Positions 20,444-28,523 of a stretch of 43,815 nt of DNA are shown piece by piece; the stretch's first letter is position 1, and each line of letters opens with the position of its first letter. Under the pieces are notes generated by a model. The model saw only the letters and a list, made by a program, of their open reading frames with translations. It was not told the DNA's origin and did not search any database. The DNA comes from a virus. The stretch spans positions 1 to 43,815 of the IMG/VR virus record IMGVR_UViG_3300049716_000043; one strand, given 5' to 3'. The translations under genes were made by a program, and so were the position numbers.

Positions 20444-22372
20444 ATGAATACAGCAAAACAGACTTTACCGCCTCCTTTGGCTCCGACTTCGGCGCCACGC
20501 ATGCCTTCGATGCCGGCGCGACAATCAGTGCCCGCTCATACCGCGTCGGCGTTTGAATTCTCAATGCCGACCGAAACGAAAATCGGTCAGAAAATAATCA
20601 TCAATTCCGTAGAAGGTTGGGGGAAAGGGCACCCTTCATCAACCCCAATTTTAACGCCAAGCGGCTTTATTCCGTTAAAAGACATAACTGTTGGAAGTCA
20701 AGTGATTGGGTCAAATGGCAAACCTACCACTGTGACTGGAGTTTTCCCAAGAGGTGTATTACCAGTTTACAGGGTGGAAATGACAGACGGATCAACAACA
20801 TTTTGCGATATAGATCACCTGTGGGCTACAACAAAAGTGGGTGATAGAAATGGTGAAGGAATTAGTAACGGTGAAAAGGTAAGAAGCACAAAAGAAATAA
20901 TTGACTCAATGCATAGGAATGTTAGTGGTTCACATGCACCCAAAGACGGTAAATATCCATTGCATAGGATACCTATTGTTAAGCCAGTAAATTTTTTACA
21001 TGATGATGACATTCTTCCTTTGCACCCATATTTATTGGGATGCCTGTTAGGTGATGGGAGCATTTCTGTAAATAGCAATGTTGTGTTGCACAAGCCTGAA
21101 GTTGATTTACTTAACAAGTGTTTAGCTTTTCTTCCAGAAGGTGATACTGGAGTAATGCTTGAGAAAGATAATGTAATCGAAGGAATGAGAATTAATGGAG
21201 GTGTTACAAAAAAAGAATTAAATAACCTAGACCTTTTAGGTTGCGACTCGTTTAGCAAGTTTATACCAAAAAAATACCTATTATCAAGCATTGAAAATAG
21301 AACAAAACTTTTACAGGGCCTTTGTGATACTGATGGATCTGTTTTAGCAAATGGATCAAGAATTGAATTTTGCACGTCTTCGGAAAGCCTTAAAACTGAT
21401 TTCGCTTTTTTAGCGAGATCGCTTGGAGCAATAGTATCAATAACTTCAAGAATCCCAAAATACAAATATAAAGGTGAAACACTAAGCGGAAAACTTTCGT
21501 ATCGTATAAAAGTCTGCTTCCCTGAAAGCGAAGTAATCCCCGTATCATCTACAAAATTTCAAAATTACCGCGCAATTGATAGTATTGAGCTTGCTGGTGA
21601 GGATGAAGTAATATGTATAAAAGTTGACGCTCCAGACTCTTTGTATGTGTGCGAAGATTTTATCGTTACCCATAATACTTCCCTTGGTGCCTATGCTCCC
21701 GATTCCGCCATTATCATGGCGCGAGGCGAGACCGGGTATTTGTCACTGTATCAGAATGGCCGCGTTCCTGCACGTCCTACTATGACTGTCGATGATTGGG
21801 CGGGCTTGCTTTCGACGCTCGATAAGATATCAGAAAGCCCATCTATGAAAGTTTTGGTTTTTGATGCAATCGGTGGATTTGAGCGCTTGTGCCACGAAAT
21901 GGTTTGCAGACGCGACTTTAAAAACGATTGGGGTGATAAGGGTTTTGCCTCTTACAATAAGGGCTACGATGTAGCTCTTACCGATTGGCTTGCGTTTCTT
22001 AATAGGCTCGATAGAATTGCAGATAAAGGTGTGACGATTATCATTTTATCACACATCCAGGTTCGCAACCACAAAAACCCGCTCGGTCCTGATTACGATC
22101 GATACGAGTCAAATGCTCATGCAAAAACGACATGGGCCGCAACTGTCAAGTGGAGCGACGCGGTTTTGTTTTGCACGTTCCGAACTATACTTGACAAAAT
22201 GAACGGAAAAGAAAAAGGAATCGGTGGAACCGAGCGTGTAATGTACACCGAATCAACCGATGCTTACACGGCGAAAAACCGCCACGGAATGCCTTCAGAA
22301 ATTGAAATTCCAAGCGACCCGGCGCAGGTCTGGCCGATAGTCGAATCACTCATTTATCCTAACGTAAAGTAA
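20444..22372 (+). CDS. RecA-like ATPase (Sak4-type) interrupted by an intein
   Basis: A 642-aa precursor. Residues 1-61 and 412-642 form the host protein; residues 62-411 are an intein. After splicing a 292-aa ATPase is left, with Walker A VEGWGK joined to TSL (inserted between K and T), a Walker-B-like SMKVLVFDAIG, and VTIIILSHIQV. The N-terminal ~40 residues are Pro-rich and flexible. The family is probably Sak4-like single-strand annealing or RecA-core recombinases, which pair with an SSB. The SSB-like gene follows ten bases later. Without splicing the P-loop is split and the enzyme should be inactive. Confidence 0.75.
   Translation: MNTAKQTLPPPLAPTSAPRMPSMPARQSVPAHTASAFEFSMPTETKIGQKIIINSVEGWGKGHPSSTPILTPSGFIPLKDITVGSQVIGSNGKPTTVTGVFPRGVLPVYRVEMTDGSTTFCDIDHLWATTKVGDRNGEGISNGEKVRSTKEIIDSMHRNVSGSHAPKDGKYPLHRIPIVKPVNFLHDDDILPLHPYLLGCLLGDGSISVNSNVVLHKPEVDLLNKCLAFLPEGDTGVMLEKDNVIEGMRINGGVTKKELNNLDLLGCDSFSKFIPKKYLLSSIENRTKLLQGLCDTDGSVLANGSRIEFCTSSESLKTDFAFLARSLGAIVSITSRIPKYKYKGETLSGKLSYRIKVCFPESEVIPVSSTKFQNYRAIDSIELAGEDEVICIKVDAPDSLYVCEDFIVTHNTSLGAYAPDSAIIMARGETGYLSLYQNGRVPARPTMTVDDWAGLLSTLDKISESPSMKVLVFDAIGGFERLCHEMVCRRDFKNDWGDKGFASYNKGYDVALTDWLAFLNRLDRIADKGVTIIILSHIQVRNHKNPLGPDYDRYESNAHAKTTWAATVKWSDAVLFCTFRTILDKMNGKEKGIGGTERVMYTESTDAYTAKNRHGMPSEIEIPSDPAQVWPIVESLIYPNVK
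20627..21676 (+). mobile_element. Class 3-type intein with LAGLIDADG homing endonuclease
   Basis: A 350-codon in-frame insertion, visibly more AT-rich than its flanks. It starts with Gly62 (GHPSSTPILTPSGF...), not Cys or Ser, and ends VTHN411 before Thr412. Trp127 (DHLW), Cys391 (VICIKV) and Thr412 form the Trp-Cys-Thr set of class 3 inteins, in which the block F Cys starts splicing. Two LAGLIDADG-type motifs, LLGCLLGDG (197-205) and LLQGLCDTDG (289-298), show an apparently complete homing endonuclease. The insertion point is the conserved P-loop, a common intein target. Confidence 0.85.
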
Positions 22373-24978: not shown

Positions 24979-25338
24979 ATGAGCGTTAGAAAAAAAGAAG
25001 AGATGAAAACTCTTGAATGTCTTTTGACTGATCAAGAGAAGCAAATTTGTGGTAAAGATATTGCCGAAGCGTTATCAAAAAAGCGCGGGTTAGAAGACAG
25101 GCTTAAGAGTATTTCGACTCAGATTAAAGCCGAAATAACTTCCTTCGATGCACAAATAAATGTGCTCTCTGAAAAGATCAATACCGGACGTGAATTCCGA
25201 GAAGTCAAGTGCGAGATTGTATGTGACTATGAAAACGGCACCAAGAGAACCGTTCGTACTGACACATGGGAAATAATCAAAGAAACCGGAATCCCCTACG
25301 AAGATCTTCAAGGCGAATTGGAGCTTGATCCGTCGTGA
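24979..25338 (+). CDS. Coiled-coil hypothetical protein
   Basis: A 119-aa protein; ATG 24979 is preferred over TTG 24973 because AAGGA (24966-24970) is spaced eight bases from it. It is a long helix with coiled-coil pattern (RLKSISTQIKAEITSFDAQI) followed by a beta segment (KCEIVCDYENGTKRTVRTDT) common in small phage proteins of unknown role. It overlaps the VRR-NUC gene by four bases. Confidence 0.55.
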   Translation: MSVRKKEEMKTLECLLTDQEKQICGKDIAEALSKKRGLEDRLKSISTQIKAEITSFDAQINVLSEKINTGREFREVKCEIVCDYENGTKRTVRTDTWEIIKETGIPYEDLQGELELDPS

Positions 25339-25715
25339 GGCAACTTGAGCACCAAACACAATGCGCCCTCTTTACTTGGGCGCAGTCTATGCAATCGCAA
25401 TACCCTGAGCTCGCTTTACTGCATGCGATTCCTAACGGTGGTCAGCGGAACGCAATTGTCGGCGCAAAGCTCAAGCGTGAGGGTGTCAAGCGCGGTATAC
25501 CTGATGTGCATTTACCTGTTGCCCGTGGTCCGTATGTTGGACTTTGGATTGAACATAAAGCGGGTAAGAATAAATTATCACCTGACCAAGAGCACATAAA
25601 GCATTTCCTTGAGGTTGAATTGAATCGTGTAATTGTTAGCTATGACTGGACGCATAGCGCAAGGGCAATCGAGGAATATTTGAAGTTGCCAAGGCCAAGA
25701 ATTAAGGGTAAATAA
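25335..25715 (+). CDS. VRR-NUC domain nuclease
   Basis: A 126-aa protein with GTG start overlapping the previous stop (GTGA). It has the signature of stand-alone phage VRR-NUC enzymes: HAIPNGGQRN, KREGVKRGIPDVHLPV, and LWIEHKAGKNKLSPDQ, supplying the PD...(E)xK catalytic set. Such proteins are Holliday-junction or structure-specific nucleases of the PD-(D/E)XK class and would resolve replication or recombination intermediates. Confidence 0.85.
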   Translation: MRQLEHQTQCALFTWAQSMQSQYPELALLHAIPNGGQRNAIVGAKLKREGVKRGIPDVHLPVARGPYVGLWIEHKAGKNKLSPDQEHIKHFLEVELNRVIVSYDWTHSARAIEEYLKLPRPRIKGK

Positions 25716-25803: not shown

Positions 25804-25918
25804 GTGCCGAGTGGCACACTTTGTAGAGTTGGCCGAAATTCTGGCCTGTAAAGGCAGAATATTATAGGCGTCGGCAAGAGCGCACATCGTGTGCGCAAAG
25901 ACAAAAGAGAAAGGCAAT
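25804..25918 (+). other. Leader of the methyltransferase pair with boundary repeat and hairpins
   Basis: This gap holds a short hairpin (GTGCC-GAGT-GGCAC, 25804-25817), GGCCGAAATTCTGGCC (25831-25846), the boundary sequence TTGGCCGAAAT...TTATAGGCG (25829-25870) shared with sites at 27.05-27.99 kb, and a strong hairpin GCGCACA-TCG-TGTGCGC (25880-25896). GAAAGG lies just before the two overlapping starts at 25919 and 25923. The last hairpin could control which start is used. Confidence 0.5.
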
Positions 25919-26764
25919 ATGAATGAGCTACATCTTTTTAGCGGAGCAGGGGGGGGAATCCTCGGCGGATTACTTCTCGGACATACCACCGTCTGCGCTG
26001 TCGAGATCGAGCCGTATTGCAGAAAGGTTTTGCTCCAGCGCCAGCGTGACGGGATCTTGCCCTGGTTCCCAATCTGGGACGATGTGCGAACATTCGACGG
26101 TAGACCGTGGCGCGGTATCGCAGATGTTGTGTGCGGCGGGTTCCCCTGCCAGGACGTTTCTGCTGGAAGCAGCACAAAAAACGGACTTGACGGAGAGCGA
26201 AGCGGATTATGGGAAGAGCAGAAGCGAGTGGTTTGCGAAGTGGAGCCGAAAATCGTGTACGTGGAAAACTCCGCAATGCTCACTTCTCGAGGGCTTGGAC
26301 GAGTACTGTGGGACTTGGCCGCAATGGGGTACAATGCAGAGTGGGGAGTGCTACGAGCAACCGATACCGGCTTTCCTCACGAGAGAGAGCGTATCTGGAT
26401 TGTTGCCTACTCCGACAAAATCATGGGGCAAGAAAGGGCAAGGGTTGTCGAACAATACCGCGAACCTGCGCATGAATTTAGAATCGACTCAACTTGCCTT
26501 GCGGATAGTCAAAATTTGTGGGTGGAGATGGCCAGCAAGTTTTATCGAATGGATGATGGGATGGCCAATCGGTTGGAGCGCACTGAGTGCCTTGGAAATG
26601 GACAAGTACCAGCAGTGGCTGCAAAGGCATGGCACGTCCTGTGCCAAAGAGCCGCCGCAGAACACTATGGAACAGGCCAGAACATCGGCCAACAGCTAAA
26701 GGAGCGCCAGGCTCAAAGCAGCCCAGCGTCCGTTCTGCGGAGGCAATCGTGTTCAATATGTTGA
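25919..26764 (+). CDS. DNA (cytosine-5) methyltransferase
   Basis: A 281-aa enzyme that methylates C-5 of cytosine with S-adenosylmethionine. Motif I LFSGAGGGILGG (6-17), motif II CAVEIEPYC, motif IV FPCQDVS with catalytic Cys77, motif VI VENSAML (115-121), motif VIII RERIWI (156-161) and motif X GNGQVPAVAAKAW (226-238) are all present. The target-recognition part between VIII and X is very short. The ATG at 25919 is used; an in-frame GTG at 25889 is less likely. Nearly its whole length is also open in another frame that encodes a different conserved-type protein (25923-26699). Likely role: protecting phage DNA from host restriction. Confidence 0.85.
   Translation: MNELHLFSGAGGGILGGLLLGHTTVCAVEIEPYCRKVLLQRQRDGILPWFPIWDDVRTFDGRPWRGIADVVCGGFPCQDVSAGSSTKNGLDGERSGLWEEQKRVVCEVEPKIVYVENSAMLTSRGLGRVLWDLAAMGYNAEWGVLRATDTGFPHERERIWIVAYSDKIMGQERARVVEQYREPAHEFRIDSTCLADSQNLWVEMASKFYRMDDGMANRLERTECLGNGQVPAVAAKAWHVLCQRAAAEHYGTGQNIGQQLKERQAQSSPASVLRRQSCSIC
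25923..26699 (+). CDS. Overlapping second-frame protein of the methyltransferase gene
   Basis: A 258-aa ORF that starts four bases after the methyltransferase ATG and lies inside that gene in another frame. It is not random. It contains GSPARTF (73-79), WFAKWSRKSCTWKTPQCSLL (103-122), GTWPQWGTMQSGECYE (130-145), SGLLPTPTKSW (158-168) and FIEWMMGWPIGWS (207-219). From memory, these are the hallmarks of a protein family seen beside phage cytosine methyltransferases and often labelled methyltransferase-related. The product would be translated from the same ribosome site. It could be a specificity or accessory subunit; no function is established. That both frames look like known families supports true dual coding. 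Confidence 0.6.
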   Translation: MSYIFLAEQGGESSADYFSDIPPSALSRSSRIAERFCSSASVTGSCPGSQSGTMCEHSTVDRGAVSQMLCAAGSPARTFLLEAAQKTDLTESEADYGKSRSEWFAKWSRKSCTWKTPQCSLLEGLDEYCGTWPQWGTMQSGECYEQPIPAFLTRESVSGLLPTPTKSWGKKGQGLSNNTANLRMNLESTQLALRIVKICGWRWPASFIEWMMGWPIGWSALSALEMDKYQQWLQRHGTSCAKEPPQNTMEQARTSANS

Positions 26765-27948: not shown

Positions 27949-27996
27949 AAACGTTGTAAGCAATAAATTCGCTTTTGGAAATTATAGGCCGCGCCG
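27949..27996 (+). repeat. Boundary repeat copy, most complete
   Basis: AAACGTTGTAAGCAATAAAT (27949-27968) then TTTTGGAAATTATAGGCCGC. Upstream bases ATTTATC match GTTTGTC before the core of the attC-like element, so the right half of that element is shared. It precedes the HNH gene. Confidence 0.55.
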
Positions 27997-28013
27997 AAGA
28001 AAAGAGAAAACAA

Positions 28014-28523
28014 ATGCCGTGCGATTACAAACAGTATCCTGACAATTGGAAGTGGCTTTCACGCCAGATAGTAGCCGATGCGGGAAATAAATGCGAACTG
28101 TGCCATGCTCCGAACGGTGCTTTCATCCAGCGCATCAAGGATGCCGAGTATCCGTGGTACAAGATCGAGAACACAAAGCCAGAGGACAAATTTACGAAAG
28201 TAGTTCTCACCGTACACCATATCAATCATGACAAAAAAGATAGTACTAAACAGAACCTTATTGCTCTTTGCCAAAAGTGCCACTTACGGCTTGACCTTGC
28301 TCATCACATGAAAAACCGAAGAGCGGCGCGGCGGAACACTGAGGAAGCGAATTTACAGCTTACTTTTGGGTTTATCAGTAGCAAAGATGCAATAAAAGTA
28401 TGGAATCGACGTGCAGACGATAACCGCGATTGTGACACTTGCGATCACGATGGATCATGCACACAAATGGTTATCAAATGTAAAGGTTACTCACCAACAA
28501 TGCCAGACCGTAGGGAGGAATAA
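28014..28523 (+). CDS. HNH endonuclease with C-terminal Cys-rich extension
   Basis: A 169-aa protein from ATG 28014 (upstream in-frame TTG 27975 lies in the boundary repeat). CELC (27-30) and CQKC (86-89) bind structural zinc. VHHINHDKKDSTKQN followed by LIALCQKCH is the HNH core with H68/H69, N81 and H90. The C-terminus (AIKVWNRRADDNRDCDTCDH, CKGYSP) is a second small Cys-containing domain. HNH enzymes in this position may be free homing-type nucleases or act in packaging. Here it is far from the terminase, so mobility is more likely. Confidence 0.75.
   Translation: MPCDYKQYPDNWKWLSRQIVADAGNKCELCHAPNGAFIQRIKDAEYPWYKIENTKPEDKFTKVVLTVHHINHDKKDSTKQNLIALCQKCHLRLDLAHHMKNRRAARRNTEEANLQLTFGFISSKDAIKVWNRRADDNRDCDTCDHDGSCTQMVIKCKGYSPTMPDRREE

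Follow-up and report, generated by a model that had tools for sequence, protein, structure and literature searches.

Phage C5 cytosine methyltransferase genes carry a conserved +1-frame gene that probably encodes a second, target-recognition chain

Analysis of a virus record from IMG/VR, 43,815 nucleotides long and hereafter called the window (a Mu-like phage, going by its portal protein), revealed two overlapping reading frames that probably encode a natural two-chain C5 cytosine methyltransferase of the M.EcoHK31I kind, with both chains read from one DNA segment. The frame-0 chain, alpha, carries the catalytic motifs and lacks motif IX; the nested +1-frame chain, beta, carries motif IX and putative recognition modules. 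An earlier note on this DNA had described two ORFs with starts four bases apart; this arrangement (ATGAATG) was confirmed, with the ORFs at 25919-26764 and 25923-26699. The features of the locus are as follows.

25907-25914, plus strand: putative Shine-Dalgarno-like sequence GAGAAAGG, read from the sequence, lying 4 nt upstream of the alpha ATG and 8 nt upstream of the beta ATG
25919-25925, plus strand: overlapping starts ATGAATG, with the alpha ATG at 25919 and the beta ATG at 25923
25919-26764, plus strand: alpha, C5-methyltransferase large-domain chain of 281 aa, ATG start, motifs I-VIII and X, without motif IX
25923-26699, plus strand: beta, nested +1-frame chain of 258 aa, ATG start, putative target-recognition and motif IX subunit
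25923-26222, plus strand: beta residues 1-100, an N-terminal extension that covers alpha motifs I-V, with weakly constrained sequence in an open frame
25928-25954, plus strand: alpha motif I, LHLFSGAGG, conserved columns
26135-26155, plus strand: alpha motif IV, GGFPCQD, with the catalytic Cys; GGFPC is invariant
26261-26278, plus strand: alpha motif VI, VENSAM; E116 and N117 are invariant
26262-26288, plus strand: beta WKTPQCSLL, over alpha motifs VI-VII, at a dip in synonymous variability
26313-26348, plus strand: beta segment TWPQWGTMQSGE, a P.[WSL]G.M-type match in the WPQWGTM region
26378-26407, plus strand: alpha motif VIII, HERERIWIVA, conserved columns
26400-26417, plus strand: beta LLPTPT, where the variable LPTP module(s) begin; putative target recognition region
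26547-26576, plus strand: beta motif IX, EWMMGWPIGW, a short distance before alpha motif X
26591-26632, plus strand: alpha motif X, LGNGQVPAVAAKAW

The alpha chain contains, in order, motifs I, IV (PCQ), VI and VIII, by which C5 cytosine methyltransferases are recognized, and it matches phrog_363 with E=1.6e-57. The match to PF00145 (E=4.9e-28) covers profile positions 3-166 of 324 only, and the match of the alpha family profile to M.HhaI is confined to residues 15-192; thus, the continuous methyltransferase domain of alpha ends at motif VIII, and motif X stands apart from it. About 55 variable residues separate motif VIII from motif X (LGNGQVP). The AlphaFold2 (AF2) model of alpha has the catalytic fold, matching M.HaeIII/M.HhaI with E=2.5e-10 over 174 columns, and its pLDDT falls below 50 at residues 182-198 and 203-228, which make up most of the VIII-X linker. 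Motif IX is absent from the alpha chain, as apparently is the recognition domain, and motif IX is found in the +1 frame only, so the earlier claim that the first frame holds all main C5-methyltransferase motifs does not stand.

In the neighborhood of the methyltransferase, a VRR-NUC nuclease is encoded upstream (window 25335-25715) and an HNH nuclease downstream (27975-28523). No cognate restriction enzyme was identified near the methyltransferase, and nothing ties either neighbor to such a role. A scan of the methyltransferase region for promoters and terminators found nothing. Elsewhere in the window (20444-22372), a Hint/LAGLIDADG segment splits a gene for an AAA_24 ATPase; by its Pfam matches it appears to be an intein that carries a homing endonuclease.

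The beta chain of the window matches phrog_1008 (E=1.7e-14), as do other betas (4e-24 and 4e-28), the split chains Firecracker gp5 (1e-58) and RedFox gp43 (8.5e-57), and residues 282-472 of the one-chain-like Wachhund gp69 (9e-73). The N-terminus of Wachhund gp69 resembles alpha in matching phrog_363. The string EWMMGWPIGW was read as motif IX because relatives have the same string followed by GNGVVP, which is motif X, in a single frame. Alpha lacks motif IX, and the +1 frame has motif IX together with the WKT, WPQWGTM and LPTP elements; therefore, the two frames are complementary. The beta profile also matches the Wachhund alpha frame (E=1.3e-5), the Wachhund +1 frame (1.2e-21), and SG4 (9e-36), and an hhalign comparison of beta with the Wachhund-type family gave E=3.6e-9 on RLxxxFpEWMMGWPaGW, over 22 columns only. 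Judged by sequence homology, the C-terminal half of beta (LPTP through EWMMGWPIGW) corresponds to a small domain displaced from the methyltransferase itself, and it is homologous to the recognition/IX part of the Wachhund-type enzymes. Other database searches with beta gave little: Pfam had no match to the window beta and only scattered weak matches to a set of 31 betas, and a profile search of beta against PDB returned nothing significant.

These matches bear on the view that beta is a real, overprinted gene whose product is an accessory or anti-restriction protein and not the small domain of the methyltransferase. In phage operons, methyltransferases are commonly accompanied by unrelated genes for evading defences, which counts for this view, and so does the fact that the small-domain role is read from sequence while beta alone is not confidently folded (AF2 mean pLDDT 55.7, pTM 0.27, residues 34-101 below 50; a fold search with this model was uninformative at that confidence). 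Nevertheless, we consider the accessory role unlikely, given that (i) alpha lacks exactly what beta has, and the same module lies in the alpha frame of the Wachhund-type enzymes, (ii) beta motif IX aligns with and resembles KLHPRECARVMGYPDSY of M.HhaI, and (iii) the betas examined sit in alpha genes. The earlier note had placed the beta family beside phage cytosine methyltransferases; in the loci read in detail, the WKT...SGM part of the family lies inside the methyltransferase gene, in the +1 frame over motifs VI-VIII.

For the analysis of the +1 frame, homologues were collected via alpha and via beta, yielding 157 distinct sequences with motif X in frame, and the expected number of stops was obtained from synonymous codon shuffles that preserve the protein and its codon usage. 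The +1 frame is free of stops from codon 4 to motif X in 147 of the 157 homologues. On average a gene has 0.13 stops in +1, where 4.1 are expected, and 12.7 in +2. Codons 4-160 contain 19 +1 stops in total, compared to 447 expected, and codons 61-110 contain none, compared to 143 expected. Among the loci found through alpha only, 87 of 91 are stop-free. The homologues share ancestry, so the pooled figures overstate the effect and a count over clusters is fairer: when a single sequence stands for each of the 35 clusters formed at 70% alpha identity, the frame lacks stops in 28, where 0.64 would be expected. The same procedure applied to 250 neighboring ORFs (61,114 codons) gave 2385 stops versus 2395 expected, a ratio of 1.0. 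These neighbor genes replaced the Wachhund-type enzymes as the no-overlap control, because the Wachhund-type +1 frame turned out to be protected from motif VI on. On this comparative evidence, the +1 frame is a real, conserved gene.

The position of the starts is conserved as well. At the site of the beta start, 98 of 103 distinct loci have ATG and the remaining 5 have GTG, in a set that was partly found with the beta-start pattern; in most of these loci alpha also starts there, with ATG, GTG or TTG, and otherwise its start lies upstream, usually by 4-5 codons. The second alpha codon, which overlaps the beta start, is AAT in 73 and AAC in 2 of the loci found by alpha, though AAC is the commoner Asn codon elsewhere; a change from AAT to AAC is silent in alpha and abolishes the beta ATG. 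In E. coli, initiation at the closely spaced starts of AUGUG is ambiguous and both frames are translated (PMC9841429); the literature consulted on closely spaced starts offered no coverage of AUGAAUG.

The conserved start codon and the open N half speak to another explanation, in which ribosomes shift out of alpha into the +1 frame and make one fusion protein (motifs I-VIII, then the recognition region and motif IX), and no beta is started separately. Such a fusion would be a nearly complete one-chain enzyme, and the relatives with a mid-gene start keep the +1 frame open only from motif VI on (in the Wachhund type, 0 stops versus 24 expected over VI-VIII and 76 versus 57 upstream). In the lineage of the window, however, the +1 frame is open across the whole N half, as the lack of stops in codons 61-110 shows, it is headed by a start codon, and a shift would lose motif X, which remains in frame 0. 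We therefore regard a fusion without a separately started beta as improbable.

Constraint on the DNA goes beyond openness of the frame. Synonymous variability of alpha, taken as observed over expected codon variability among alphas that have the same amino acid, stays near 0.9 in codons 69-103 and 169-199 and falls to 0.51-0.66 over the DNA of beta WKT...WGTM, to about 0.7 at LPTP (a dip at alpha codons 157-171), and to 0.33-0.41 over beta motif IX. The beta motifs themselves recur in the +1 frame of the 157 homologues far above shuffled expectation: the P.[WSL]G.M-type match in 143 (9.3 expected), the LPTP match in 124 (17.2 expected), and motif IX in 71 by a strict pattern (0.02 expected) or 115 by a loose one (2.2 expected). 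OLGenie-style ratios, which have no neutral or matched-gene baseline, are supportive only: in the N half, dNN/dNS for beta was 0.69 and dNN/dSN for alpha 0.18, and in the recognition half the corresponding values were 0.56 and 0.62; dSS was saturated in the dual-frame analysis and gave no estimate. In the N half, changes that are silent in alpha are common (dSN 0.855), which means that beta residues 1-100 retain an open frame with little conservation of sequence. The suggestion that both frames are constrained and that the 258-aa frame is a conserved gene is thus borne out by stop depletion and the synonymous dips, and the outcome named beforehand as telling against it, frequent stops in the second frame and normal synonymous variation in the first, is the opposite of what was found. 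That beta is an untranslated shadow ORF, open only through the codons that alpha happens to use, was rejected as having next to no chance of being right: the window alone would be open in +1 by chance in 1.6% of synonymous shuffles (P=0.0155, only suggestive by itself) and the residues of the beta N half vary almost freely, but the depletion of stops against an unaffected neighbor control, the synonymous dips at the beta motifs, and the homology of beta to recognition/motif IX regions all stand against it.

The overlapping arrangement is widespread. At least 553 relatives of alpha were matched in IMG/VR, and among 399 Pseudomonadota species genomes a beta match occurred in 9, always with an alpha match, and in the +1 relation wherever the frames were read. 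In the loci read in detail, the beta WKT...SGM segment overlaps methyltransferase motifs VI-VIII in +1, and across annotated phage and plasmid loci from numerous hosts motif IX in +1 keeps a fixed register, usually 47 nt, ahead of the frame-0 motif X. Examples of the nested layout include phages SG4 (Mycobacterium), Paisley (Paenibacillus), BF1-TP2 (Bacteroides) and BUCT711 (Klebsiella), as well as Leptospira and Acinetobacter plasmids. A distant methyltransferase on plasmid pAQ5 of Picosynechococcus PCC 7002 (L280, 2345-3157) has a motif IX-like string, FSPEAMAMYMGFP, in +1, which may extend the pattern further.

Annotation of these loci is uneven. The beta frame is annotated as a hypothetical protein and the methyltransferase is missed in Pseudomonas phages phPA-G (L067, 1501-2229) and Shamal (L277, 1505-2191) and in Vibrio phage 1.291.O (L273, 1453-2151); in the other nested-layout records examined, only alpha is annotated. 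In Arthrobacter phage RedFox (L157, 847-1755), gp43 is annotated as a gene following gp42; its frame is open for 288 nt upstream of the annotated start, overlaps gp42 and encodes the SGM segment there, so the annotated start of gp43 is probably wrong.

Other layouts differ in where the recognition region, motif IX and motif X are encoded. Firecracker (gp6/gp5) has motif IX together with motif X in a +1 gene whose overlap is partial. In the Wachhund-type enzymes, the modules and motifs IX and X are all in frame 0, and the +1 frame over motifs VI-VIII still encodes WET...WPTSGM-type segments. In the Wachhund-type mycobacteriophages (L158-L189), this protected +1 frame stops inside the module region, and its tails are alike in the two loci that were fully read (DLPESWHP and ELPMSWQP). 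One further locus (L064, 1883-2571) continues after motif VI in the catalytic frame as beta-type TWPRSGRMQNG...LLTPT, without motifs VII-VIII, and is possibly a decayed or fused copy.

In the alpha tree, loci with start-to-start overlap form one group (support 93) beside relatives with a mid-gene start. This suggests that beta gained its N-terminal 100 residues through a shift of its start to that of alpha. The tree was built quickly and rooted at the midpoint, and since the root is uncertain, the direction of change is only a suggestion. The proposal of the earlier note that the beta family arose by overprinting the methyltransferase gene thus holds in part. It fits the first ~100 residues, which look like a late 5' extension over motifs I-V, and does not fit the LPTP to EWMMGWPIGW part, given its homology to the Wachhund alpha frame.

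Taken together, these observations are best explained by a two-chain enzyme. Alpha would form the large catalytic domain, with AdoMet binding, the PCQ nucleophile, motif VIII and the closing helix of motif X, and without the small domain. Beta, started four bases past the alpha start from the same ribosome-binding site, would supply the small domain in trans, comprising the WKT/WPxWGxM segment, the variable LPTP module(s) and motif IX; its small-domain fold is predicted from motif content and homology. The LPTP module(s) would constitute the target recognition region, which motif IX anchors in one-chain enzymes, and the N-terminal ~100 residues of beta probably form a flexible stretch, present because the beta start shifted up to that of alpha. 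The active enzyme would be an alpha-beta heterodimer in which alpha transfers the methyl group and beta picks the DNA site. We infer that both products are made and bind each other, that beta sets the specificity, and that the enzyme protects phage DNA; a counter-restriction role is plausible for a phage methyltransferase. The earlier suggestion of beta as a target-specificity partner remains the best reading of its motifs and relatives.

A broader interpretation, to which we would give somewhat less than an even chance, is that phages, plasmids and prophages share a deep, widespread and obligately two-chain class of C5-methyltransferases with a +1-overprinted recognition half. The point at which the recognition region, motif IX and motif X return from +1 to frame 0 would have shifted between lineages, the LPTP modules would be interchangeable and give multi-site specificity, and the Wachhund type would also need its +1 partner.

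If the two-chain reading is right, a common family of phage enzymes is half-annotated, with either the catalytic or the recognition chain recorded as the gene; some records show the recognition chain alone, under the name hypothetical protein, and thereby miss the methyltransferase, and the annotated gene expressed alone would yield no activity or a wrong conclusion. The locus would then be a clear case of two complementary enzyme halves written in shared base pairs, and the intermediate layouts found in nature would form a series in which the overlap's history can be traced.

Comparison with known systems revealed both shared and distinct features. No description of overlapping-frame phage methyltransferases was found in the open-licence literature searched, and PHROG labels both phrog_1008 and phrog_363 as DNA methyltransferase, without mention of overlap or division of labour. 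In 1995, Lee, Kam and Shaw reportedly found the small chain of M.EcoHK31I to be encoded within the gene of the large chain, in a different reading frame. M.EcoHK31I (YGGCCR) is an alpha/beta C5-methyltransferase whose large subunit has motifs I-VIII and X and whose small subunit has motif IX (PMC3404938). The window shares this division, with motifs I-VIII and X on alpha and IX on beta. It also has the nesting of the small chain in another frame of the large-chain gene that is reported for M.EcoHK31I. The likeness drawn here is one of motif division and proposed mode of action, and makes no claim of membership by sequence. In M.EcoHK31I the recognition domain is assigned to the large chain; in the window, the putative recognition modules (LPTP) lie in beta, as judged by sequence, and alpha has about 55 variable residues of low model confidence between motifs VIII and X. 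The window also differs in that its starts are four bases apart with an overlap spanning all of beta, and it belongs to a phage setting of wide breadth, with no cognate endonuclease identified near the locus. In M.AquI (CYCGRG), the break between the two chains falls in the variable region that follows motif VIII, and the smaller chain has motifs IX and X (PMC3404938); in the window, motif X (26591-26632) is on alpha and not on the small chain, and Firecracker gp6/gp5 is closer to the M.AquI layout. Wachhund gp69 shares with the window the catalytic half, the LPTP modules and motif IX (EWMMGWPAGW there) and differs from it in having the recognition region, IX and X in the alpha frame, although a shorter +1 frame over VI-VIII is still conserved. 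Thus, the two-chain kind was already known from a characterized enzyme, and what is new here is the breadth, the start arrangement and the modular recognition region apparently carried by beta.
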